DNA of 23,646 nt from a virus. Each line of letters starts with the position of its first letter. Positions within the stretch are counted from its first letter, which is position 1. Where the stretch lies: the IMG/VR virus record IMGVR_UViG_3300030688_000120, positions 1-23,646 of that record. One strand, given 5' to 3'. Positions 2,244 to 17,626 of the stretch are shown piece after piece. The position numbers and the translations under genes are program-made. The notes below the pieces were generated by a model. That model was not told where the DNA came from. It worked only from the letters and a program-made list of their open reading frames with translations, and did not search any database.

Positions 2244-2509
2244 TGGCAGAAATACGAGCAAAATCCGGAATGGGTGGCTCAGCAGACAAGGGTCACGGAA
2301 CTCGGATAGCTGAGTATATCGAGACTCCTCTGCGAATTCACTGCGGCTCTTGTGAATATTTAGTCGGAAAGAAATTCTGTCGTCAATCGGTCGTGGCGAA
2401 GGATAAACAAATACCGACCGATAAATCTACCGGACTCAAGATCATAGACCCTATAAAGGGGTGTTGCAGATATTATGAAGCGGATGAAGATAAGGATCAA
2501 TCCAGATAA
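2243..2509 (+). CDS. Small Cys-containing hypothetical protein upstream of terminase
   Basis: 88 residues. ATG 2243 is preferred over GTG 2240 because it forms a TGATG overlap with the previous stop and gives the N-terminus MAEIRAKSGMGG, nearly that of the gene at 103. Cysteines at CGSC, FC and GCC resemble a small zinc or iron-sulfur site (CGSCEYL, KKFCRQS, KGCCRYYE). Its stop TAA 2507-2509 shares its last A with the terminase ATG, inside a copy of the dispersed motif. It may be a packaging accessory by position; function is not known. Confidence 0.75.
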   Translation: MAEIRAKSGMGGSADKGHGTRIAEYIETPLRIHCGSCEYLVGKKFCRQSVVAKDKQIPTDKSTGLKIIDPIKGCCRYYEADEDKDQSR

Positions 2510-2514
2510 TGGAC
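2500..2514 (+). repeat. Dispersed 15-bp motif, copy 2
   Basis: ATCCAGATAATGGAC. The TAA stop of the upstream gene and the ATG of terminase are both inside the motif (TAATG), so the element is also the coupling junction. Confidence 0.85.
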
Positions 2515-4554
2515 AACGCAGATAAGTTTGACTTGCTGCAAGATCAGTACGGCAGTAAGCAAGAAATTCCAAATTCCGTCTTGTACGACTTCCTTATAGA
2601 GATAAAGGAAGACCTAATAAATTTAGCTAAATTGGGTTTAGACACAATACCGAACTCATCTCTTGGCAAAGAGGTTCGTCGTCGCTGTGTTTTCGACATT
2701 AAGTGGTTAGCGCAATATTTCTTGTGGGACGCCATGCCCGTCAGCGATGGCGGATTAAAACCAGTTTCAGATAATATATTTCTCGATCCTCAGTACGATA
2801 TTTTCGCCGAGTTGTTTGCCAAGAAAGACCCCGCAGTACCAATCCATAAACTAAGCCCCACCAAGACACGTCTTCTACTATGGCCTAGAGGCGGAGCAAA
2901 AAGTTCCTACGACCACGTAGATACCTTCCAATGGATCATTGCGTACCCAGATGTTCGTATTCTATACCTGACCGCAGAGTCTAGTTTGTCGGTCGGGTTT
3001 ATCGGCGAACTTAAGGGATTCTTTACCCTCCGCGAAGACGTTCCCACCTTTGCGAATCTTTTCTTCCCTGAGCACTGCTCCTTATCCAAGGACATGAAGA
3101 AGGGGACGTTGTTTACCTCCCCGGTTTATAAGAATAAGAAAACAGGGCGTAAAGAACCAACAGTGGTTGCCTCCTCGGTGGGCAAAACAAAATCGGGATG
3201 GCACTACGAAGTAATTAAATGTGACGATTCTGTCTCAGATAAGAATACGGAAACAGAGACACAATGCCAGACGGTTTCCGAAAAGCTGTTCCTCGCGGAA
3301 AACCTTTTGATCCCTGGCGGCGATGGCTTTCCCATATTTTATATCGGGACGCGCTATCACGACCTAGACCATTATGGTGCTTTGCTTGAGAGATATTTAG
3401 ATAAAGGTGAAGTAGAAGTTACGTCCGGGATCGGCTGGAAATTCTATCACAACAAAACCTTCAGCATTGACATACTAATAGGTAAAGCCTGTCAGATAAA
3501 GCCGGAAGTTGCCGATAAACTGTCCAGAGAAGGCAGACCGGTAACATACAGCGAAGCCGGAGAAGCCGGATGCGATATTCTGCTCCCTAATATTATGTCG
3601 TACTCGTTCTTCATGGGAAAGTTCTCGAAGAACGAGAGGGTAACAGAGGGTCAGCTTAATCAGAACCCACAGACTACGAGTGACGTTGAGTTCGACCGGA
3701 TGCTCATGGTTCGGGCTACTGTTCCATACCAGATGCTTCCCCGAGAAGGACCCTGCTGTCAGTTCTGGGACTTCGCTTTTAGTCAGAAAAAAGGAAGAGA
3801 CTACTCAACGGGTGCGTCCATTATCTGGACAGAAGAAGATGAACTTACCTCCAAGGGAGAAAAGACCGGCAACAAGAAAACGGTCGGATACGTCCGTAAG
3901 ATCGTCCGAGATCGATTTAATCATTCTACCCTCGCTCAAGCAGTAGTTGATTTGGCGATGGAAGAGCGGCCTTTCGTCATTGGAATTGAAGACGCCGCTG
4001 GGTCCAGATTTTTAGAGCCCACAATCATTTCTACCGCTCTTCGGACCAAAGACCCCAGAATAATCGAATTATGTTCTCACATTGACTGGGTGTCTCCAGA
4101 CAACCAGATAGATGCCAAGCGGGTTAGAATGCGGTCGATGTATCCTTGGGTTTCTGAGGGTCGTCTCAAATTCTTGAACGCCTGTATGGCCCCCAAAGAG
4201 ACCAATCTGGAAGTACTCTATTCAGAATATCAGAAATGTCTAGTAAGCCACCACCACGACGATATTCCCGATGTCGTTTCTCAGATGCCTAATCGGTATG
4301 CCCCCCGCGCCACGCAGGCTATAGTAGAAAACAACGTCGAGATGTTCTCTCGAATCGATCAAATAGGCTGGAACGAACTCTTCAACGAAGACTATATGTC
4401 TCAGCACGGTTCGTGGATGGACGAAAACGGGAACATAATAAATCAGGAACAGCCGATCCTTCCGATGGCTGATTTATTCCAGCCAGAACCAGAAGCATCA
4501 AACCAGACACCCTACGGGTTACCAAACGTGTTGGGCGCTGGATTTTGGGGGTAA
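2509..4554 (+). CDS. terL: Terminase large subunit
   Basis: 681 residues. The DNA-packaging ATPase and nuclease cuts the concatemer and pumps DNA through the portal. Residues about 125-137 (LLLWPRGGAKSS) form the Walker A loop, and CDDSVSD near 242 fits Walker B followed by the coupling region. The C-terminal RNase H-like nuclease shows FWDFAFS (about 420) with the first aspartate, GIEDAAGS (about 490) and HHHDDIPDVV (about 585) with the last acidic residues. The order and length are normal for TerL, though it is at the long end. The start overlaps the previous stop. A copy of the 15-bp motif lies in the nuclease region at 3816-3830 without breaking the frame. No small terminase was recognised nearby. 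Confidence 0.93.
   Translation: MDNADKFDLLQDQYGSKQEIPNSVLYDFLIEIKEDLINLAKLGLDTIPNSSLGKEVRRRCVFDIKWLAQYFLWDAMPVSDGGLKPVSDNIFLDPQYDIFAELFAKKDPAVPIHKLSPTKTRLLLWPRGGAKSSYDHVDTFQWIIAYPDVRILYLTAESSLSVGFIGELKGFFTLREDVPTFANLFFPEHCSLSKDMKKGTLFTSPVYKNKKTGRKEPTVVASSVGKTKSGWHYEVIKCDDSVSDKNTETETQCQTVSEKLFLAENLLIPGGDGFPIFYIGTRYHDLDHYGALLERYLDKGEVEVTSGIGWKFYHNKTFSIDILIGKACQIKPEVADKLSREGRPVTYSEAGEAGCDILLPNIMSYSFFMGKFSKNERVTEGQLNQNPQTTSDVEFDRMLMVRATVPYQMLPREGPCCQFWDFAFSQKKGRDYSTGASIIWTEEDELTSKGEKTGNKKTVGYVRKIVRDRFNHSTLAQAVVDLAMEERPFVIGIEDAAGSRFLEPTIISTALRTKDPRIIELCSHIDWVSPDNQIDAKRVRMRSMYPWVSEGRLKFLNACMAPKETNLEVLYSEYQKCLVSHHHDDIPDVVSQMPNRYAPRATQAIVENNVEMFSRIDQIGWNELFNEDYMSQHGSWMDENGNIINQEQPILPMADLFQPEPEASNQTPYGLPNVLGAGFWG
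3816..3830 (-). repeat. Dispersed 15-bp motif, copy 3, inside terL
   Basis: GTCCATTATCTGGAC, the exact reverse complement of the consensus. It is inside the terminase coding sequence, where it encodes SIIWT after the first nuclease aspartate. This is the only copy fully inside a conserved gene. Confidence 0.85.
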
Positions 4555-4937: not shown

Positions 4938-5231
4938 ATGAACACAGGCTTGATTTCGCTCGGCGGGAATCTAGAATCTCCCCGTAACTGTAAACCTTCC
5001 GACTTCCCCGCAGTCGGACCTTCCGGACCTGAAGGAGAAGCTAAAGGTGCCGGACAACTCGTCAACCAGACTTTGACTCAGGAAGGCCCACAGCATACCC
5101 AAGACGAGGGTGAACACACTCCTTCCAAATGGGGCAAGGCCGACTGGACCGTAGGAAAAGCGAGCGAGGGGAGTACCGCAATTTCAATTCCCTGTTCGGT
5201 AGATTTCGAGACAGGAAAACACACCTGCTAA
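4938..5231 (+). CDS. Small hypothetical, Gly/Pro-rich protein
   Basis: 97 residues from ATG with AGGA 4 bases upstream, one base after the previous stop. It is rich in Gly, Pro, Ser and Glu (GPSGPEGEAKGAGQL), with no membrane segment, and ends in a two-Cys segment (CSVDFETGKHTC). Low complexity suggests a disordered or virion-associated protein. No family recognised. Its last base is the first base of a motif copy. Confidence 0.6.
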   Translation: MNTGLISLGGNLESPRNCKPSDFPAVGPSGPEGEAKGAGQLVNQTLTQEGPQHTQDEGEHTPSKWGKADWTVGKASEGSTAISIPCSVDFETGKHTC

Positions 5232-5251: not shown

Positions 5252-7864
5252 GTGAATAAACTATTTCTTTTGCTACTCATTTCGGGTATTGCTTTTGGCC
5301 AAGCCACCACGGGGTACCACCGGGTCAACCAACTATTGTCCCGGGGGACTTCTGGCGTTACGGCGCAAATTGTACCCAACGGTACGATTTTCGTAACCAA
5401 TACTACTACGGGGGCCGTTGCTACCATCTACTCTGATCCCGGCCTGTCTGTTCCGATTACTTCGGGGGTAGTAACATCTGATAAGAACGGGAACTACGAT
5501 TATTATATTCCCCTAAATTATTGTGTAGACGAACAGGTGTCTGCGGCGGGTCAAGGTAGCTATACTACCAAGAACATTTGCGTAAATAGCAGCGGAGGGT
5601 CCGCTCTTCCCGCCTCGGCTCCTTTGATAGGAACTACGAGTGGGGGGTCTGCTCAGAGCATCACTCTGGGAAGTAATCTTAGTTTGAGCGGAACTACTTT
5701 GAACGCGACAGGCGGAGGGTCTGCTCCAGCTCCTCCCGCTAACTGCATTCAACTGGCAAACACTGCGGCGACTGCGCTAGCGTGCGACCCCGAGTTTGCC
5801 GAAAACCCGATAACTCACACACTAACACTTGGCACAGGTGCAGATTCCTGCACCGGCGCGAACTGCATCACTCTGGCTAACGGCAATGGCACATTCGGAG
5901 GCACCGTCGAGGCTCCCATTGCGTTGCATGGACAGATCAACGCGACCTTTACGGCAAGCCAATACAGCGGTGGGTCTGTGGCTGCCCAGATAGCGGCTGC
6001 GCTCTCAGCGTGTGTCGCCAATGGCAGCGGTACGGTGATCGTTCCACCGACGATGGGGGTAGGTTATTGGACTCCGCCGTTACCGACCGGTTGCAACGTT
6101 ATAGATCAGCGTAATGGAATCTTTGATATTCATCGAACCAGCGGAACTAATCTAGCGGGGCAGTCAGGCGGTTTCGGCGTGTTTATCAACGAAGGAGCAC
6201 CTATCAGTACGAACCCCGCAGCTAATAACCCTGTGGGTTTCTACTCGGAAGTATGGTCACGGACCTTGTTCGGAGCAATCACCCCCGGCACTGGATATAC
6301 TACAGCAAGCGGACTTTCCACTACTGGAGGAACAGGGACGGGACTGACGGTCAATATCACGGCAACTAGCGGAGGTATTATCTCTGCAACCGTAGCAACC
6401 GATGGAACCGGATACACTCCAGGAGATGTTGTTACAGTTACGCAGTCTGGGGCATCGGGCGGAACGATAGCTCTCATAACCGTACCTATGACGGCATGGG
6501 GCGCAAATCCTCTTGTCGCGTGCAAGAGCACATCAGCAGTATTCCCTTGCTGGGCAGCGGAAAACGATGTAAGCAACCAAACATCCGGGATGAGTGGTTA
6601 TGGTTCTAATTCGGTCATTACTAGCTATTCGGGATTCAGCGCAGCCCAGCCGTCGCAACTAGGAGACTCGGCATTTTATGCCAATGGAGTTTACGCTCGA
6701 TGGTCTACAGGACTGAAGATCAAAGCAGCATCCTTTCAGTGGATTGGAAACCAAAGTTATGAGCCTGCTAGTGGAAGTGCCCAAACCACATACCCTCCTC
6801 CCGGATTTAACTTCACTGGCGCAATCACCGGATCGGCCTCTCCGCAGCAGTTGAGTGTTACTCAGACCGCAGGCAATTCCCTAAGCTATGCCGGAACTAA
6901 CTCTTACGTTACTTGTGATCCTTTAGGTAATCCTGAAACGGTTCTAATTACGGCGCTTAACTCAAGCAATGTAGTAGGAACTTTTTTGAATAACCATGCG
7001 AGTGGAACGAGTTGCTACTTCTTCGATGCACAGTTTGGATTCAATGCCTACAACGCGATTTTCCAATATTCCCCTATCGTGTTAGGAAGCATCAAGCAAA
7101 CTGCTCTTTATGGTGCGGCATCACCTAACATAGCCGTATATGACAACGCCGGAATCCTGCAAGAGCCAATCCGCGTAGACAACAGCAACACTTTCATTCT
7201 CACAACGATGGGTAACGGCCTGAGTGTCCGCAATCGGACAAACAATTCAGGCATAATTCAAACGACCAAAGAAGACGGGACAGTGGCCTGGAACACTTTC
7301 TCGACGGGGAATCCCCAGTGGACCACATACGGTCCAAGCGTTCCGACTGGAAATAATATCGGGGCATGTTACGGACTCGACACGAGCAACAAGGACGGCG
7401 CTTGCTTTGACTTTTCCAATGTCGCGGGAACGGGAAGTTCTTCTAATTTTGGCTATCTAGCCATTCAAGGTGCTTCTCCAGCAATATCTTGGTTTGCAGA
7501 TCAGCATGTGTCTATTGGAAATCGTCTGGTTATCAATGGCGACTTCTCGAATGCCAACGGCGTCACTATTCCCTCAACCGCAACGGCTTCTAAAGGAACA
7601 CTTTCTGGCGGTCCTGTCTTGGTCCTCACTTGTACTACGGGGAGCATCACCCCCGCTACTACAGCAGGTGGCACAGCAAGCGGGACGTGTACGGTATCCG
7701 CATCTGCCACAGGGCACGCGGGAGCCGCCACAGCTTCTGATGGAACCGTGCAGGGAATAGTCATTCCCCAAGTTTCCGTAATCGGTACGACGGCTACGGT
7801 TACGCTCACGACGGTCATCGCTGGATCACCCACGGCAAAGACTTACAACGTCACGGTATTTTAA
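5252..7864 (+). CDS. Large tail-spike or fibre-like surface protein with Sec signal peptide
   Basis: 870 residues. GTG 5252 is chosen because it opens a classic signal peptide (VNKLFLLLLISGIAFGQA, likely cut after AFG). The longer in-frame extension to 5129 runs through another gene and is charged. Residues about 20-110 hold a beta-sandwich-like head (GTIFVTNTTTGAVATIYSDP, then GNYDYYIP) common at the start of phage tail fibres. Residues about 130-165 carry fibre-like GTTSGGSAQSITLGSN. From about 230 there is a pectate-lyase-like pattern (GGSVAAQIAAALSACVANGS, then GTVIVPP). A GTGYT repeat occurs around 345-390. The C-terminal 90 residues are Thr/Ser/Gly-rich beta sequence. Probable adhesion or polysaccharide-binding protein. 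The signal peptide is odd for a virion protein. Confidence 0.75.
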   Translation: MNKLFLLLLISGIAFGQATTGYHRVNQLLSRGTSGVTAQIVPNGTIFVTNTTTGAVATIYSDPGLSVPITSGVVTSDKNGNYDYYIPLNYCVDEQVSAAGQGSYTTKNICVNSSGGSALPASAPLIGTTSGGSAQSITLGSNLSLSGTTLNATGGGSAPAPPANCIQLANTAATALACDPEFAENPITHTLTLGTGADSCTGANCITLANGNGTFGGTVEAPIALHGQINATFTASQYSGGSVAAQIAAALSACVANGSGTVIVPPTMGVGYWTPPLPTGCNVIDQRNGIFDIHRTSGTNLAGQSGGFGVFINEGAPISTNPAANNPVGFYSEVWSRTLFGAITPGTGYTTASGLSTTGGTGTGLTVNITATSGGIISATVATDGTGYTPGDVVTVTQSGASGGTIALITVPMTAWGANPLVACKSTSAVFPCWAAENDVSNQTSGMSGYGSNSVITSYSGFSAAQPSQLGDSAFYANGVYARWSTGLKIKAASFQWIGNQSYEPASGSAQTTYPPPGFNFTGAITGSASPQQLSVTQTAGNSLSYAGTNSYVTCDPLGNPETVLITALNSSNVVGTFLNNHASGTSCYFFDAQFGFNAYNAIFQYSPIVLGSIKQTALYGAASPNIAVYDNAGILQEPIRVDNSNTFILTTMGNGLSVRNRTNNSGIIQTTKEDGTVAWNTFSTGNPQWTTYGPSVPTGNNIGACYGLDTSNKDGACFDFSNVAGTGSSSNFGYLAIQGASPAISWFADQHVSIGNRLVINGDFSNANGVTIPSTATASKGTLSGGPVLVLTCTTGSITPATTAGGTASGTCTVSASATGHAGAATASDGTVQGIVIPQVSVIGTTATVTLTTVIAGSPTAKTYNVTVF

Positions 7865-7875
7865 GGAGATCAATC

Positions 7876-8235
7876 ATGGCGTGGACGCTCGCACCTTCTA
7901 TCACAGACCCTGCTTCCGGCGCATCTGTCGGGGGTTTATGCCTTGCCATCAAAAGCATCTCTGCGGTTCACGCGGAGAAATACGCTACGGTGTTCTGGGC
8001 GATCTACCAAAGTAAGGCGGCGCGCGAGACCGGACAGTTGCCTATTATTGACCGCGACCTCTTCACTGTATTCAACGATACGAACGCGCTTGTGGCAGGT
8101 CAGTACACGCCGATCTTCGCAACGCCGTCACTCACCCACACACCGAACCCGTTGGCGGCGGCAGCCTACGCTGCTTTGCCGACGCACCCCGATCCTGTTA
8201 TCTCCGGGCTGCTGGTTGGCGCGGTGGAGTGCTAA
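7876..8235 (+). CDS. Hypothetical protein between the two surface proteins
   Basis: 119 residues with a strong AAGGAG ribosome binding site 8 bases before ATG. It is mixed hydrophobic (VGGLCLAIKSISAVHAEKYA) and ends VISGLLVGAVEC. There is no signal peptide or clear membrane helix. GC content rises here relative to the terminase region. It may be a virion or chaperone-like accessory to the adjacent large proteins, judged by position only. Confidence 0.7.
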   Translation: MAWTLAPSITDPASGASVGGLCLAIKSISAVHAEKYATVFWAIYQSKAARETGQLPIIDRDLFTVFNDTNALVAGQYTPIFATPSLTHTPNPLAAAAYAALPTHPDPVISGLLVGAVEC

Positions 8236-8307: not shown

Positions 8308-8496
8308 ATGGGATCACCCGCAGGTTTCGGATTCGGCGCATTCGGCATCAATTACGGCGAGAGCGTGGCTACCCGCGCTTTCGTCGGACCCTCGTCTTCC
8401 GTATCCGGCGCTTCGGTTGCTCTGAAACTGGTAGATACCTACGAAGATGGTACTCAGGTTGAACGCACTACGTTACCAACCACAAGCTGTGGATAA
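8308..8496 (+). CDS. Small Gly/Ser-rich hypothetical protein
   Basis: 62 residues with AAGG about 8 bases before the ATG. The sequence MGSPAGFGFGAFGINYGESV is Gly/Phe-rich, followed by short beta-type segments. It lies 11 bases before the next gene. The 72-base gap upstream shows no gene. Function unknown. Confidence 0.5.
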   Translation: MGSPAGFGFGAFGINYGESVATRAFVGPSSSVSGASVALKLVDTYEDGTQVERTTLPTTSCG

Positions 8497-8507
8497 GGAG
8501 GAGACAC

Positions 8508-10718
8508 ATGAAGAAACTCGCAGTTCTGCTTTTCGTCCTGTTGGCTGGTACGTTGGCTGACGCGCAAATTATTACCGCCGCCTCGTGCAGTGCAAGCGAT
8601 GTGCAGACTGCATTCAATGCTGTAGTGGCCTCAACTACTACAGTCAACATTCCTGCGTGCAGCGGCGGCGTCACCTGGACCACCGCTATTTCGCTCACGG
8701 TTCCGTCGGGCAGCACAACCCTGTCGATTCTGGGCGCGGGCAACCTGAGCACCGTCGGCGGCGGCGACCAGACTGTGATCATCGACGGGACGAACAGTTC
8801 TAGTCCCCTTATGCAGATCACCACAGCCGGAAGCTCTTCTCATCTGCGAGTAGCTGGTTTCACAATACAACTGCTGACTGGCGCGTCCAAGAACGCTGGA
8901 ACCTTTTATGTGGATGGCTTGTCGAGCAACTTCCGTATGGACCATATGCACATACTGACCAGCATCAACACCAACGTTGCGCAGTTCGGTGGATGCCTCT
9001 ACGGTGTCATTGACCATTCGATATTCGATAACGGCGCAGGGAGTACGAGCAACTCACTGCGCATCTACAATCAGGGGTCCTGTTACAGCGATTCTCTCCA
9101 AATTGGTGATCAGGCTTGGGCGCATAGCACGGGACTCGGCGGACCCAACTTCATGTTTGTCGAGGACAATGTCTTCAACAACGGGGCTGGAGACGACTGC
9201 ACCGATGGCGGGAGCTTTGTTTGGAGATTCAACACAATGAATATGACCTATCCTGCACCGGCCCTACAGACGCATCCAACGGGCGGCGCGGGGAGAATCA
9301 GGGGATGCCGCGCCTGGGAGATTTACCAGAATCAATTTGATGCCCAAAGCGGAAGTATTGCCAGTCCGGTATTCTGGCTCAGCAGCGGAACTGGCGTCAT
9401 GTGGGGCAACACGATACCGTCGTCCACAGGAACCGGATACGCTGCAATGATGCAGCTTCAGGAACAGCGCACCATCGGCAACCCACCCGGGACGTATACG
9501 CAGACGGCTACGCCAAATGGCTGGGGATATTGCGGAACTACCTACAATGGAACTGGATCAGCGTGGGATCAGAACACCAGTACGGTTACCGGCGCCCACT
9601 GCATGGATCAGCCAGGTATGGGTCAAGGCGATCTGTTGACTGGAGGGTTCACGTCGGACGGCAGTGGTTCCAACAACGTATGCGACATCACACAGAACCC
9701 GTCGGGATGCTCATCTTACACAGGGCAATGGGTCAATGAGGCGGTCGAGCCTATCTACGAGTGGTTGGACAACTACTCACCTGTTCCCATCCAAACGTCA
9801 TACTTCCTATGGATTAATACCGCCTTCACGAACACGTTCGTAGCCAACTCGGACTACTACCTCTGGTGCGATCCAACCAGCCAAAGCGGATGCACCAGCT
9901 TTACGGGTGCGACGGGAACAGGATCGGGCGCACGCTCTGCTCGGCCCACGACCTGCACAACCGGCGTAGCCTATTGGTCCACGGATCAGGGGAGCTGGAA
10001 TACCAGCGGAAGTGGCGGCCAGGGCGTGCTCGACAAATGCACGGCAACGAACACATGGACCAATGCGGCTTACGTTCCCTACACCTATCCGCACCCGCTC
10101 GACACCAGCAGCACGCCCACGGCATCAACGCCCACGTTCTCGCCAGCGGCGGGCACCTACAGCAGCGCTCAGACAGTCACCATCACCACATCCACTGGGC
10201 CGGTGATCTGCTACAACACGACCGGAGCCCCAGCGACAAACGGATCTACCGGTTGCACCACAGGGATGCTCTACACGGGTCCATTCACCGTGAGCACGAC
10301 ACAAACGCTGTATGCGGTGGCTGGTGGCACTGGCTATGCTGATTCGACGGTTGCTTCCGCAGCCTACACGATCACCATTCCGACTGCGGCCACGCCGACA
10401 TTCTCACCGGCTGCGGGGACGTACTCCTCGGCGCAGACCGTGACCCTTGCTGACACGACGCCATCGTCTTTGATCTACTACACCACGGACGGATCGACGC
10501 CGACAACCGCGTCAACACGCTACACAATACCTTTCACCGTCTCAGCTACCACAACGGTAAAGGCAATTGCGACCGCATCGGGATACACGAACAGCGCGGT
10601 CGGGACGGCGACGTATACGATAACTCCTGTACTAGTATGTACAGCGGTATTCATTGGATCAAATGGTTCTCTGAACATCGGAACTGGAGGTACCTTTCAA
10701 ATAGGTGGTTGCCATTGA
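8508..10718 (+). CDS. Secreted right-handed beta-helix protein with two chitobiase-type C-terminal repeats
   Basis: 736 residues with GGAGGAG 6 bases before ATG. Residues 1-20 are a textbook signal peptide (MKKLAVLLFVLLAGTLADAQ). About 20-350 has the short beta-strand rhythm of a pectin-lyase-like beta-helix (VIIDGTNSS, FRMDHMHI, YGVIDHSIFDN, NFMFVEDNVFNN). Two homologous modules, about 540-625 and 627-708, share TPTFSPAAGTYSSAQTVT and fit the CHB_HEX_C-type domain, frequent in secreted Acidobacteriota proteins. A short tail (GSNGSLNIGTGGTFQIGGCH) follows. There is no obvious tail-attachment domain. It could be a secreted carbohydrate-active or adhesion protein acquired from a host, or a processed spike. 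GC is clearly higher than in the head genes. Confidence 0.75.
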   Translation: MKKLAVLLFVLLAGTLADAQIITAASCSASDVQTAFNAVVASTTTVNIPACSGGVTWTTAISLTVPSGSTTLSILGAGNLSTVGGGDQTVIIDGTNSSSPLMQITTAGSSSHLRVAGFTIQLLTGASKNAGTFYVDGLSSNFRMDHMHILTSINTNVAQFGGCLYGVIDHSIFDNGAGSTSNSLRIYNQGSCYSDSLQIGDQAWAHSTGLGGPNFMFVEDNVFNNGAGDDCTDGGSFVWRFNTMNMTYPAPALQTHPTGGAGRIRGCRAWEIYQNQFDAQSGSIASPVFWLSSGTGVMWGNTIPSSTGTGYAAMMQLQEQRTIGNPPGTYTQTATPNGWGYCGTTYNGTGSAWDQNTSTVTGAHCMDQPGMGQGDLLTGGFTSDGSGSNNVCDITQNPSGCSSYTGQWVNEAVEPIYEWLDNYSPVPIQTSYFLWINTAFTNTFVANSDYYLWCDPTSQSGCTSFTGATGTGSGARSARPTTCTTGVAYWSTDQGSWNTSGSGGQGVLDKCTATNTWTNAAYVPYTYPHPLDTSSTPTASTPTFSPAAGTYSSAQTVTITTSTGPVICYNTTGAPATNGSTGCTTGMLYTGPFTVSTTQTLYAVAGGTGYADSTVASAAYTITIPTAATPTFSPAAGTYSSAQTVTLADTTPSSLIYYTTDGSTPTTASTRYTIPFTVSATTTVKAIATASGYTNSAVGTATYTITPVLVCTAVFIGSNGSLNIGTGGTFQIGGCH

Positions 10719-10782: not shown

Positions 10783-12858
10783 ATGATTCTCCCAGAGCCC
10801 GTACGCGATCCTCACCAAGACATAACTCCAGACGAAGCGAAGGTGTTCCTCAGTTCAGGAACTTGGGGAGACCCAGCAGCTCTCGCGTTGACGGTGCAAG
10901 ACTCTGAGAGAGCAGAATCTGAAGAGCAACGTCGTCAGTGGATCATGGCTTGGGTTTCGTCGAGGGATCTTTATACCTCGGTTTATTCTCCAAACTTCTG
11001 GCCCGGAACGTCGATTGAAGCCTCGTCCGTAAACTTTTTCACGGTGGCCACGGCAGTTAATGGGATCAATCCTCAGCTTCTGGCTGGATTGTTCTACGAA
11101 AACCCTCCTTTCATGGTTCAAGAAAGACCCGGAACCACCTCCCAGTGCGCCCGAGCCGTCTCCGCTCTATTAGGATACCAACTAGAAGATATCAACTTCC
11201 GCGAAGAACTCCGCCTCGGATTGATGAACTGCCTGCTATTTGGTACGGCCATCTTCCAAGAGGGGTGGGAAAAATATACAAAGAAACGCAAGATCGTCAA
11301 ACGCAAGAATCCTGTCATCAAGATTCCGAGCTTAATCCCGGGAGCCAAAGAAACATCGATTAGTGATGACGAGCTAGAAGTTGAGGAAATCGAAGAGGTA
11401 ATCGACCGACCCACGTTTGAGCACATCGTCAACCTCAGAGAAGTCTTGGTTGACCCGGGCCTCGAAGTTCCGGATATTCGCAAAGCTAAATATGTTGTCC
11501 GTCGCCGATACATGACGTGGGAAGACATTGATAAGCTACGTGACCGGGAAGGATACGATATTCCTTCTCGACAGAAGATGTTAGAGCTGTTCTTTCCTCC
11601 GAGGGAGCTTCCCGAGTCAAACCCACAGCAAGAAGGTGGACGCAATCCTTTATGGGACGCGCGCGCCGAATCCCCTTGGGACGCAACTACGATCGATCCG
11701 TTCCAAAAACCTCTTGAAGTTCTAGAACGCTGGGACAACAATACCCTGATTGTAGTCATCCAGAAAAAGATGGTTATCTACAACGGTCAAAATGCCTATG
11801 GTAAGATTCCTTTTCTGAGTATTGGTTGGTGGGATCAGCCGGGAGCCTTCTGGTCTATAGGTCTTGGTCGTCTAGTCGGAACAGAACAGCGTGTCCAAGC
11901 AGGAATAACCAACCTGATGATGAATATCGCGAACCTGAAGCTGAACGCTCCGTTGGTCCGCGTAAAAGGCAAGTCGGTCCCAACACAAAGTATCCGCATC
12001 GGTCCTAATAAGATGATCGAGGTGGATGCTCAAGGCGATCTTCAACCCCTGAAATTTGGAGACCCTGTAGTAGAAGCCAACCAGCTCTTTGCCATGTCTC
12101 AGCAGAGGGTTGACTCGGTCTCGGGTAACAATCCGATCACATCCCAGGGTAACGCGGGATCAGCAGGACACTCGAATCTTGCCCGGTCGTCTGCTGGAGC
12201 TTCGCTCCTCGGGCAGGGTGCTTCGAATGTCATCTCGGATTGTATCGATAAACTGGCTAATCAGGTGCTGGTGCCTTATTTGTACGACATGCAAGAGATG
12301 AACGCAATGATGCTGCCATATTCTCAACTGGAATGGATTCTATCTGAAGAACTTCAGCACGAGTATATACAAGAGGGCGGCGATATCATAAATGTTCTCA
12401 ACGCCAAAGTCAAATTTGCCGTTCTTGCGGGAAGTAAAATGCAGACGCGGCGCGTTGCGCAGCAAGCTCTCCCCATGATAAGTCAACAGATTCTATCTCC
12501 TGAAGCAACCACCCATTTGCAGAATCAAGGAATGACGGTTGATTTCATCGAACTGGTGAGAACGTGGATGGAGATGGCGGAGCTGAAAAATATGCGAGAC
12601 TTGATCCGCCCAATGAATGAACAAGAAATGGCTAGGATGCAAGCCCAGACACAATCAGCCGCTCAGCAATCAAAAGCAGCAGTACAATCTCAGCTAGCAG
12701 ACCAAAAATTCCAACAAGCCCAAACATTGGCGGATCAAGAGAACACAGCCCGGGCTGCTCGTGACGTTTTGCGCGAATCATTCAAGGCTTCCGTAGCTCC
12801 TCAAGAACTCACGGGAGCACCCAACGCCTCATCTGGGTTTGGCTCGTTAAACATTTAA
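10783..12858 (+). CDS. Portal protein
   Basis: 691 residues, ATG 10783 with AAGGA 5 bases upstream. The portal is the ring at one vertex through which DNA enters and leaves. Family-like features are an N-terminal region with RDLYTSVYSPNFWPG and LLAGLFYENPPFMVQERPG, a central wing (FEHIVNLREVLVDPGLEVPD, VRRRYMTWEDIDKL), a stem and crown region (LGRLVGTEQRVQAGITNLMM), and a long Gln/Ala-rich C-terminal coiled coil (about 615-675), as in large podovirus portals. The length is normal for P22-like portals. It stands upstream of the scaffold and capsid, the usual order. Assigned by overall pattern, not a single motif. Confidence 0.85.
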   Translation: MILPEPVRDPHQDITPDEAKVFLSSGTWGDPAALALTVQDSERAESEEQRRQWIMAWVSSRDLYTSVYSPNFWPGTSIEASSVNFFTVATAVNGINPQLLAGLFYENPPFMVQERPGTTSQCARAVSALLGYQLEDINFREELRLGLMNCLLFGTAIFQEGWEKYTKKRKIVKRKNPVIKIPSLIPGAKETSISDDELEVEEIEEVIDRPTFEHIVNLREVLVDPGLEVPDIRKAKYVVRRRYMTWEDIDKLRDREGYDIPSRQKMLELFFPPRELPESNPQQEGGRNPLWDARAESPWDATTIDPFQKPLEVLERWDNNTLIVVIQKKMVIYNGQNAYGKIPFLSIGWWDQPGAFWSIGLGRLVGTEQRVQAGITNLMMNIANLKLNAPLVRVKGKSVPTQSIRIGPNKMIEVDAQGDLQPLKFGDPVVEANQLFAMSQQRVDSVSGNNPITSQGNAGSAGHSNLARSSAGASLLGQGASNVISDCIDKLANQVLVPYLYDMQEMNAMMLPYSQLEWILSEELQHEYIQEGGDIINVLNAKVKFAVLAGSKMQTRRVAQQALPMISQQILSPEATTHLQNQGMTVDFIELVRTWMEMAELKNMRDLIRPMNEQEMARMQAQTQSAAQQSKAAVQSQLADQKFQQAQTLADQENTARAARDVLRESFKASVAPQELTGAPNASSGFGSLNI

Positions 12859-15196: not shown

Positions 15197-15223
15197 AAAC
15201 TAACAACAAAGGAGTATCTCTAA

Positions 15224-17626
15224 ATGAGCTACTCACCTGCGAGTATCGTAACTTCCGGGGCGCTTCCTAACCTTGTAGCAATTCACTAAAATCTTGGTGA
15301 ATCAAAATTCGGCTATATCGGTGGAACTCTGTTGATACGCAGACAATACCGAGGAAAGACCGGGAAACCGGAATCCGTAGAGACTAATACGCCGAACAGT
15401 CCAGATAATGGACTGAAGATAGAGCCCGATCCTATTGGTGACAGTAGGCGCGACCCAACGGTGACGTTGGTGTCCTAAAACACAAATGATGAACGTGAAG
15501 CGATCCCTAACCTAAAAGCCCAGACGCCTTTCTTGAGCATGACAAAACAACGTCCGCTGCCCCTCCGTCAGGGAAACCAGATTCAGTATTGAATAGTGCT
15601 GAATTAAAATCTAGCTATATCGGTGGAACCCTATTGACAATAGAATGCTGGTGTGGTATTCTTATCTTGTCAACTAGACAATACCGAGCAAAGACCCTAT
15701 GAGAGAACGAACAAAAGCATACGTAGCCGGACTGATGGACGCCGAGGGCTGCTTTTCGATTTACAAACCAACAGTTAAACCGAACGGCCCCTGCACCAAC
15801 TACCAACCACGCATTGTTTTGAGTAATACTAATCTGTCGATAGTCAAATGGCTGGTTAGAACTTTCGGTGGCTTCTTTACCAAACATACCCCTAAGAAAG
15901 GGCAGGTTTGGTATCAGTGGAACCTCAACGGCAAAAAGTTTGCCCCCGAATTCCTCTCATACATTCTTCCGTATCTTCGCATCAAAAAAGCTGAGGCTCT
16001 CGTACTTCAGGAGTTCTATAGCTTGGGAGACGCACAGAATCCTTCCAGACGCCAAGAACTTATGGCAACGATTCGCGGAATGAAGAATAGGGAATGCCTA
16101 ACGACTGAGACGCTAGACGGAAAAGTTGAAGATAAACTAACACACGCGTATATAGCCGGAATTATGGACGGAGAAGGCTGCGTATCCGCCGCTTTCACCC
16201 CGGACAATAAACCGATGCTACGAATTCGGATGGGAAATAATTACCGCCCCCTTGTCCAAATGTTTCTCGATCTCTACGGAGGTTGGTTTCATACGACAGA
16301 GGCCCACGACAACACCGAGGAGTTTTATACTTGGGAGTTGACGGGAAAAGAAAGTCGGGAACAATTCCTCCTCCAAGTTCTTCCCTACCTAAGAATCAAG
16401 AGACCGCAAGCCAAGATCGCTTTGGAACTTGTTCGTCTTCCTAGTTCTCCGAATAGGGAACTCCGCAAGAAGTTGTGTGATGCAATTCGTTATCTCAACC
16501 TACCGAAGATACAGCCTGTTCTCATCGGCGACGATGAGAGTGCCCCAGTAGAGATACTGACGGCCTAAACACAAAAGTCTTCACCTACGCTCTGCTTGCC
16601 GCCAACCTTAATCAGGCAGCGGAAGGAACCGTCGGAAGTCCTATCAGTGAATCCAGCAATAAAATTGTCGCGACTATCGGGCAATATGCTGATTTCATTA
16701 ACAGTTCCGACCTTGCCCTGGACGTTGCAATTGACGACCCGGGTCTCCTTCAGAACTTGGCAAACGAACTGAACTACCGCTTGGCTCTCACCCTCAACTC
16801 CCTCGTCCAGCTTACCGCTGACTCGGCTGTTGCGGTCGATAGCTTGGTAAATATCCAGCTTGCAAACGGCTCGTATCTGACTGCGAATAACATCCGGTCT
16901 GCTGCTCAGTCGCTGGTAAGCGTCAACGCTCGTCCTCTCGTGGACAACAAATTTGGTGGAATCATCCACCCGAACGTGGTCCGCGATGTGCTGAACGACA
17001 CCTCCTTCAACGGATTGTCGGACATCATCAAGAGAAGCGACGAGATGCGCAACATGCTGTTTGAACTGCCTAAGAATGAGGATACCATCTCGTTCGCGGG
17101 TGTGACGTTCAAGCAGACTAGTACCGCGCCGACAGTAACTATTGGGGGTAATACCTATTACAATAGTTACATCTTCGGCGACGATGCTATCTTCTCTGTG
17201 TTCCTGGGGAAGAATCCAAACGATGGATCGAAGAACTATCAAATGGTAGCTTAGGGGAGTAATTCCCTTCGAACACACCGCTAATTCAGGGAACAACTCT
17301 TCGGAGTCAATCCTGAGCGAAGCCCGAAAGGGAACGTGCAGAGGCCATACACGGTGCCCCTCGAAAGAGGGTGATGAGATGGTCCGCTCTATACGGCGAC
17401 GTATAGAGGTGGGCGGAACAAGAAACGACCCACCCTTGTCCAGAGTAAGGGACATGTAACAAAGAGGAAATTGTTCATACAGTCTGCGCCAGAACAAGGC
17501 AGTGTGAGTGATCCAGCTCGCCAAATTGGGGGTTGGGTTTCTTATAACGTTAGGTATACCAATACTTTGCGTCCAGGCTCGACAATGACGCTTCGTCGTT
17601 TGCAGTCGGAAACATCATCCAGCTAA
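15224..17626 (+). CDS. Major capsid protein, four exons
   Basis: AAAGGAG precedes ATG 15224 by 9 bases. Proposed exons are 15224-15287, 15489-15587, 16578-17239 and 17468-17626, which join in frame to 984 bases (327 residues). Joins give IHYEREAIPNLKAQTPF, GNQIQFFTYALLAAN and SKNYKLFIQSAPEQGS. These look like a continuous HK97-fold coat protein of the P22/N4-gp56-like type, with a central EGTVGS and IGQYADFINSSDL and the C-terminal SDPARQIGGWVSYNV. Each exon boundary was chosen so that the exon ends in U, the intron ends in G and the frame continues. Without splicing the reading frame stops at 15288-15290. A stop-overlapping motif copy (17617) follows. Family assignment is by pattern only. 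Confidence 0.85.
15288..15488 (+). ncRNA. Group I intron 1 in the capsid gene
   Basis: 201 bases with no ORF. P1: exon ATTCACT (15281-15287) pairs with intron GGTGAAT (15296-15302), giving the required U-G at the splice site. P4 is TCGGT (15318-15322) with ACCGA (15348-15352), and P5 is TCTG with CAGA. The GGTGGAAC...AGACAATACCGAG signature resembles T4 td-type (IA) introns. P8 is the motif hairpin at 15397-15415. GAAGATAGAG is the usual J8/7. P9 is CCAACG-GTGA-CGTTGG. It ends CACAAATG. I could not find a convincing P7 partner strand, so the core may be degenerate or misread. It is related to intron 2 by sequence. Confidence 0.8.
15399..15413 (+). repeat. Dispersed 15-bp motif, copy 9, forming intron P8
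   Basis: GTCCAGATAATGGAC, exact consensus, extended to a 7-bp stem CAGTCCA/TGGACTG (15397-15415). It occupies the place of hairpin P8 in intron 1, between the conserved GACTA and GAAGATA segments. Confidence 0.85.
15588..16577 (+). ncRNA. Group I intron 2 in the capsid gene, carrying an endonuclease gene
   Basis: 990 bases. P1: exon ATTCAGT (15581-15587) pairs with GCTGAAT (15598-15604), with U-G at the splice site. It shares TATATCGGTGGAAC and GACAATACCGAGCAAAGACC with intron 1. P5 is longer here (TTGACA with TGTCAA). The conserved 3' core lies inside the endonuclease gene: GTTGT near 16473 can pair with ACAGC at 16511 as P7 after GAAGAT, and CTCATCG-GCGA-CGATGAG is a P9-like GNRA hairpin. 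It ends ACACAAAAG. The splice join at T15587/16578 restores the frame as QFFTY. A cut after the other U-G pair (T15589) would break the frame. Confidence 0.8.
15699..16568 (+). CDS. LAGLIDADG homing endonuclease (intron-encoded)
   Basis: 289 residues. It carries two LAGLIDADG motifs: AYVAGLMDAEGCFSI (residues 7-21) and AYIAGIMDGEGCVSA (150-164), with the acidic residues D14/E16 and D157/E159 placed for metal binding. Each half then repeats a GGxF...W.LxGK...FL..LPYLRIK pattern (FLSYILPYLRIKKAEA and FLLQVLPYLRIKRPQA), so this is an intact monomeric two-domain enzyme. It cuts the intronless capsid allele to spread intron 2, and some such proteins also help splicing. ATG 15699 starts in the P6-side loop with no strong ribosome binding site. 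The 3' end overlaps conserved intron structure. Confidence 0.93.
   Translation: MRERTKAYVAGLMDAEGCFSIYKPTVKPNGPCTNYQPRIVLSNTNLSIVKWLVRTFGGFFTKHTPKKGQVWYQWNLNGKKFAPEFLSYILPYLRIKKAEALVLQEFYSLGDAQNPSRRQELMATIRGMKNRECLTTETLDGKVEDKLTHAYIAGIMDGEGCVSAAFTPDNKPMLRIRMGNNYRPLVQMFLDLYGGWFHTTEAHDNTEEFYTWELTGKESREQFLLQVLPYLRIKRPQAKIALELVRLPSSPNRELRKKLCDAIRYLNLPKIQPVLIGDDESAPVEILTA
17240..17467 (+). ncRNA. Group I intron 3 in the capsid gene
   Basis: 228 bases with no ORF. P1 is weak: exon CTAT (17236-17239) with GTAG (17246-17249), U-G at the junction. P4 is TCAGG/CCTGA (17286-17290, 17312-17316). P5 is ACTC-TTCG-GAGT. GAACGTGCAGAGGCC is the usual R segment. P7 pairs GGCCA (17343-17347) with TGGTC (17380-17384). 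P8 is CCCTC-GAAA-GAGGG. P9 is CTCTATACG-GCGA-CGTATAGAG (17387-17408), 9 bp. It ends at G17467. It differs in sequence from introns 1 and 2, so it is an independent arrival. The 5' site is less sure than for the others; an unspliced read-through stops at TAG 17252. Confidence 0.8.

Follow-up and report, generated by a model that had tools for sequence, protein, structure and literature searches.

The spike gene and its neighbours

The window, by which we mean the whole stretch of 23,646 bp from an IMG/VR virus record that was analysed, carries at 8508-10718 an open reading frame of 736 aa on the plus strand, as are all features of the window located below. It starts with ATG, is preceded by a strong Shine-Dalgarno sequence (aaggagga, 8495-8502) and is a genuine gene. 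The product is a spike-like protein, predicted to be exported, in which a signal peptide is followed by a beta-helix, a cysteine-bearing module, two CHB_HEX_C_1 repeats and a short Gly-rich tail. The predicted signal peptide (8508-8564) reads MKKLAVLLFVLLAGTLADA with the cut before Q, which fits the Sec/SPase I type. As a strong Shine-Dalgarno sequence stands at ATG 8508 and the feature is common to most relatives (38 of the 44 viral members whose N-terminus is intact score likewise), a chance signal or a wrongly chosen start was ruled out. Signal peptide calls here and below come from a home-made heuristic in which the start may lie anywhere within the first 70 codons and which picks up N-terminal membrane helices too. 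Calibrated on 44 E. coli genes, it caught the exported genes except malE and flagged several inner-membrane proteins and, through the any-start option, the soluble lysC.

The right-handed beta-helix occupies 8565-9890, its end being approximate, and is supported by an AlphaFold model (AF2) built from 45 aligned sequences, which is confident (pLDDT of at least 90) for 281 residues. Its top structural neighbour is ORF18 of Geobacillus virus E2 (Z 25.1, rmsd 2.9 over 282 residues), and the neighbours at Z 18-25 include alginate epimerase/lyase, RbmB, polygalacturonases, phage depolymerases and tailspikes. E219, R240 and H256 are invariant in the family alignment; the fold neighbours are mixed. 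The helix is followed by a module conserved in the spike family (9897-10100), ending in KCTATNTWT..PYTYPHPL and containing Cys483 and Cys511, which are cysteine in 59 and 57 of the 61 aligned sequences, respectively. The two CHB_HEX_C_1 stretches (10134-10607; 96.9 bits against a Pfam cut-off of 22) match best at residues 634-700, the boundaries of the first repeat being approximate, and are overlapped by an Fn3_assoc match; beyond these, searches of Pfam and PHROG returned no beta-helix, catalytic or other family. The repeat region was left without an AlphaFold model, as there are no aligned relatives there. No head-binding domain was detected, as the helix starts directly after the signal peptide and neither of the two head types tested matches by profile.

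The earlier note, which asked for structure prediction, had described a Sec signal peptide, a pectin-lyase-like body, two CHB_HEX_C-like modules and the absence of a tail-joining domain, and our results agree with it in all of these. It had also placed the gene in a GC-rich island with a codon use to be compared with that of head genes. The quoted values are right (68% GC at 8701-8760, 30% at 2581-2640), but they come from hand-picked 60-nt windows while GC ranges from 25 to 77% across the window. Taken whole, the gene has 56.6% GC compared to 50.6% in the window, and a GC3 of 0.638 compared to 0.48-0.52 in four other genes, a shift that is real but modest.

Upstream of the spike lies a second gene with a predicted signal peptide, encoding a tail-fibre/spike-type protein of 870 aa (5252-7864). 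The listed frame opens at 5129; we set the start to GTG 5252, where the relative L092 has an ATG at the homologous MNKLFLLLL. The predicted signal peptide, MNKLFLLLLISGIAFG with the cut before Q (5252-5299), is followed by a head-binding-type domain (5300-5620) that holds the cysteine pair of signal-bearing copies (NYCV...NICVN). By structure this domain resembles the Pan3 tail spike (Z 9.0, rmsd 2.9 over 91 residues), the Pam1 tail machine (Z 8.2) and the head-binding domain of the P22 tailspike (Z 7.3), where a Z of 7-8 on its own may reflect a common arrangement. A BFVD search with the domain returned many phage proteins (best E 4.3e-6), and a sequence profile search of the PDB returned the Pan3 tail spike alone, as a weak match (E 0.09). 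The gap between fibre and spike holds a 119-aa frame (7876-8235) that has no Pfam or PHROG family and recurs as the same stretch in the relative contig G001. The cassette is flanked on the left by the terminase large subunit (2509-4554, phrog_38) and on the right by an SU10-type portal protein (10783-12858, PF23899, phrog_332). The notion of the spike as a lone cargo gene was discarded, as the upstream fibre bears a signal peptide as well; the earlier note was right in seeing a secreted spike-like protein and too narrow in seeing a lone host-type gene, since the pattern is general.

The fibre gene of contig L005 (6637-9357) matches that of the window over 711 residues at 99.7%, and yet the head domains differ, each standing after a signal peptide, which we read as head-domain swapping between exported fibres. 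L002 and L005 belong to one contig of 68,943 bp, both ends of which lie inside exported-spike cassettes: one end equals the start of the window spike (125/125 residues) and the other resembles it at 85% and starts with another signal peptide, which suggests that the cassette is hypervariable in the population.

Further to the right, the window contains two Rfam group I introns (15208-15448 and 17230-17406; 55.6 and 63.8 bits), and the capsid protein of the cultured acidobacterial phage Tunturi_3 matches capsid-like pieces at 15509-15586 and 16490-17623. Because of the two intron matches and the separate pieces, the major capsid gene appears to be split by two introns. A LAGLIDADG-type endonuclease frame in this region (15699-16568), to which frames in the capsid region of G013 and G014 are related, is probably an intron homing endonuclease.

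Signal peptides around the spike family and in the tail-fibre slot

Searches with the spike and then with a 15-sequence alignment recovered 19 and 48 viral-contig loci, the two sets overlapping, and 26 loci in contigs of cellular genomes. Viral members without a recognisable signal peptide do occur (L006 and L082, for example), and among cellular relatives with an intact N-terminus 18 of 22 score as secreted. Before the genes around the spike were counted, L001/L005 and seven loci that duplicate others exactly or nearly were set aside. In the resulting 47 viral loci a signal peptide was scored in 29/39 genes at position -1, 20/32 at -2, 14/37 at +1 and 1/21 at -5, as against 28 of the 251 genes lying more than six genes away (positions -1 and -2 against far genes, Fisher p = 3e-21). 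Ten nearby genes lacking a signal peptide were scanned, and the five with PHROG matches were all structural or packaging genes, namely a J-type central tail fibre, terminase, portal, major head protein and head closure.

The signal-bearing proteins upstream of the spike are mostly long and fibre-like, and those of the cassettes reach 2295 aa. By similarity 38 fibre-like proteins fall into a single network; 33 have a signal peptide, and the others are truncated at contig ends, short, or heads that stand alone. Pfam and PHROGs put names on few of the exported fibres, one being that of L003 (257 aa), which matches a PHROG tail fibre family. The window spike, the spike of L015, the window fibre and two other signal-bearing fibres had no tblastn match in 50,697 phage records; this is weak evidence, as the window repeats do match a Tunturi_2 protein by direct blastp (see below) and low-complexity filtering is a likely cause.

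Cellular homologues of the spike come from contigs of Acidobacteriota, Verrucomicrobiota and Nitrospirota, and the cellular row nearest to the window in the family tree is from an Acidobacteriaceae MAG. Viral and cellular rows are interleaved (16 label changes, shuffled mean 17.6), giving no clear direction of transfer. That the cellular copies are prophage was rejected, as their neighbours and those of the viral loci have nothing in common at E 1e-8 except two spike-family-like proteins; judged by these neighbours most of them look chromosomal. Two cellular contigs, L040 and L048, carry two spike-family paralogues each, and the N-termini of those in L040 are lipoprotein-like by eye.

The position of the signal-bearing genes can be compared with that of fibre genes in Tunturi_3, the portal of which is 31% identical to the window portal. 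In this phage the adaptor gp13 and the stub gp14 are followed by the tail fibres gp15-gp18, none of which has a signal peptide. In G014, L064 and L100 the homologue of gp13 and a stub are followed by signal-bearing genes and then by homologues of gp12 and gp19, and therefore exported genes fill the tail-fibre slot. The window, G013 (which is L092) and L094 have an exported fibre between terminase and portal, and the content of the cassette varies among close relatives, L092 and L094 having no spike of the window's family at this site. G013 carries, behind a homologue of Tunturi_3 gp20, a fibre-like gene of 407 aa without a signal peptide (35255-36478), which may serve the window's relatives as their ordinary virion fibre. 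This gene speaks against the idea that exported proteins supply all the fibres in every case; nor does every acidobacterial phage export its fibres, since none of the genes examined scored in Tunturi_3 (0/22) or Tunturi_4 (0/16).

The same layout is found in a cultured phage. Tunturi_2 (PP885685.1) is a podovirus-like isolate on Tunturiibacter psychrotolerans X5P2, and behind its tail adaptor lie gp12 (1190 aa), gp13 ("tail fiber"), gp14 ("pectin lyase"), gp15, gp16 and gp17, all of which except gp15 score for a signal peptide; the product names appear to derive from prediction. The "virion structural protein" gp17 (1280 aa) combines its predicted signal peptide with a weak, sub-cut-off Beta_helix match and two CHB_HEX_C_1 repeats that are about 50% identical to those of the window by blastp, and a profile search places it outside the window's beta-helix family. 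A signal-like score is found in 13 of the 106 annotated genes, six of them within gp12-gp18, and all proteins of at least 300 aa that lack one have the annotation or the position of a terminase, portal, capsid, adaptor, nozzle-like, internal or replication protein. Thus by prediction the large fibre/spike-like proteins of Tunturi_2 all carry signal peptides. The excerpted main text of its genome paper mentions neither mass spectrometry, LC-MS or SDS-PAGE nor a signal peptide (PMC11924767).

Cysteine pairs in heads with and without a predicted signal peptide

Whether the predicted signals function was approached through two unrelated families of fibre heads, each of which occurs with and without a signal peptide. 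Heads of type 1, to which the window fibre belongs, have exactly two cysteines in 18 of 18 distinct signal-bearing copies, whereas 8 of 9 distinct stand-alone heads without a signal have none, the exception (L210) having two at other positions. Both forms occur side by side in L064, L100, L101, L199, L203 and L210, and the stubs without a signal begin approximately at the predicted cut site of the exported versions. L100:9496, to which the plain heuristic gives a signal, was counted as lacking one because the supposed signal falls inside the head domain.

Type-2 heads form the N-terminal domain of annotated tail spikes in cultured phages, Xanthomonas PBR31 and Shewanella X14 among them. Two cysteines are present in 10 of 11 exported copies (L115 has none) and in 0 of 76 without a signal peptide, five of which have one cysteine; the sample without a signal probably comes mostly from other habitats and hosts, so that host lineage confounds this comparison, to which the type-1 pairs within one phage are less exposed. 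Two "internal" type-2 heads (L187 and L003:8117) were set to exported by eye and the other 11 were taken as lacking a signal, with an over-long reading frame; one locus set consisted of the best 80 of 577 loci. Clustering the heads at 70% identity leaves two cysteines in 11/11 signal-bearing as against 1/5 other clusters for type 1, and 10/11 as against 0/26 for type 2. Over whole genes the all-gene cysteine content differs little (1.89% versus 1.28%), the comparison of head domains being the informative one. In the spike family itself Cys231 and Cys267 come and go together, with both present in 16, neither in 45 and a single one in none of the 61 sequences. We take the pairs as marks of folding in an oxidising compartment, and as evidence that these proteins reach one. 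It weighs against this reading that virions may contain disulphides with no appeal to export signals, as in phage Milano (PMC10811340).

A putative Sec-exported cassette and known phage systems

We propose that the spike gene is probably a member of a Sec-exported cassette of tail fibres and spikes. Features that can be read from the DNA itself, namely the predicted export signals, the beta-helix, the clustering in the late structural module, the fibre identity of the partners and the cysteine pairs, all point to this. The cassette proteins would be translated late and then exported by the host Sec pathway, to be folded and stapled by disulphides in the periplasm of a diderm host, probably one of the Acidobacteriota, and they would be useful only outside the cytoplasm. 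At lysis the exported proteins may meet finished virions and dock onto them through their retained head domains, becoming spikes that bind receptors or degrade extracellular polysaccharide, a step to which, taken by itself, we give somewhat less than even chances. The window spike, which has no head domain, would work either on its own or by way of another protein of the cassette. Two things favour docking at lysis: the exported fibres retain head-binding-type domains, and Tunturi_2 offers no further large candidate for a fibre or spike; the ordinary fibre-like gene of G013 and the headless window spike weigh against it. Put generally, it is a real possibility, at somewhat less than even odds, that in some tailed phages of soil bacteria the receptor-binding fibres and spikes are exported by Sec, acquire disulphide staples in the periplasm and are added only at lysis to virions that are otherwise complete.

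The same head domains would be needless if the proteins were free depolymerases or adhesins that loosen the polysaccharide or biofilm around the host, aid release and spread and never join virions. This explanation would suit a spike that is itself headless, has polysaccharide lyases, epimerases, hydrolases and phage depolymerases as structural neighbours and has cellular relatives that score as secreted; Tunturiibacter moreover produces extracellular polysaccharide-like substances, according to the excerpted text of PMC11924767. As it would also leave Tunturi_2 without a large fibre or spike, we consider it unlikely, while giving it real weight. A secreted host enzyme picked up as late-region cargo, that is, a host-derived auxiliary carbohydrate-active gene, would account for the signal peptide, the CHB_HEX repeats, the raised GC and GC3 and the homologues in bacterial contigs with an Acidobacteriaceae MAG nearest. 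In most viral loci, however, other signal-bearing genes adjoin the spike gene, and as the tree gives no direction of transfer and no catalytic Pfam family is found, we regard such an origin as rather unlikely. Of the two readings offered by the earlier note, a carbohydrate-active gene taken from a host is the less probable, and a spike exported before assembly is favoured by the signal-bearing fibre and spike cassette.

By analogy, exported receptor-binding proteins might occupy the receptors of the infected cell, stopping superinfection and the adsorption of progeny to debris. T5 Llp, a lipoprotein, blocks the receptor in such a manner. Proteins of fibre type with export signals do adjoin tail genes, with several different ones per cassette, but sizes of up to more than two thousand residues and enzyme-like beta-helices differ from the known small blockers, which makes this role improbable. 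It is still harder to believe that the product is an ordinary virion protein of the cytoplasm whose hydrophobic N-terminus serves as a membrane-active segment or hydrophobic anchor. The heuristic cannot tell signal peptides from N-terminal helices, and yet the sites are of the AxA type followed by Q, stubs without a signal start at the predicted mature start, and cysteine pairs track the signal in two head families.

If the exported proteins are indeed virion parts, as the proposed cassette would allow, this would be categorically new. The export of whole fibre cassettes would add a periplasmic or extracellular stage to phage assembly or to the interaction between phage and host, disulphides could stabilise fibres in soil, and some of the secreted genes reported from soil viruses as "auxiliary" and carbohydrate-active may turn out to encode receptor-binding proteins. 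As Tunturi_2 is in culture and has the same layout, the question is directly testable. The usual view is that tailed phages produce their fibres and spikes, and put them together, in the cytoplasm. There is precedent for tailspikes, for beta-helix depolymerases and for phage proteins that are exported, and in the open-licence PMC literature we met no paper on Sec-exported tail fibres or on a signal-bearing fibre cassette, which may exist elsewhere.

Exported phage proteins include lambda Lom and T5 Llp, and the window cassette is like an Llp-type blocker in its predicted export and its siting beside receptor-binding genes. Endolysins with a signal peptide or SAR domain also use the host export pathway, as the excerpted text on fOg44 describes (PMC6116005). 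Unlike the cassette proteins, all of these act in lysis or at the envelope and none is a tail fibre or spike. Acidobacteriota and other bacteria have secreted beta-helix proteins of the same family as the window spike, likewise with a predicted signal peptide; their gene neighbours are not those of the viral loci. Tunturi_2 gp12-gp17 are like the window cassette in presenting signal-bearing fibre, pectin-lyase and beta-helix proteins in a row, with gp17 falling outside the window's beta-helix family by profile search. In fold the window proteins resemble tailspikes of the P22/Sf6/Pam1 type, which have a head domain like that of the window fibre and a beta-helix like that of the window spike, the structural neighbours of the latter including spikes of Sf6, Pam1, CBA120 and Klebsiella phages. 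In contrast to these, the window has head domain and beta-helix on separate genes, and its fibre has a signal peptide ahead of the head domain and an added cysteine pair. Where phage tailspikes are taken to be assembled in the cytoplasm without an export signal, both the spike and the fibre of the window carry predicted signal peptides.
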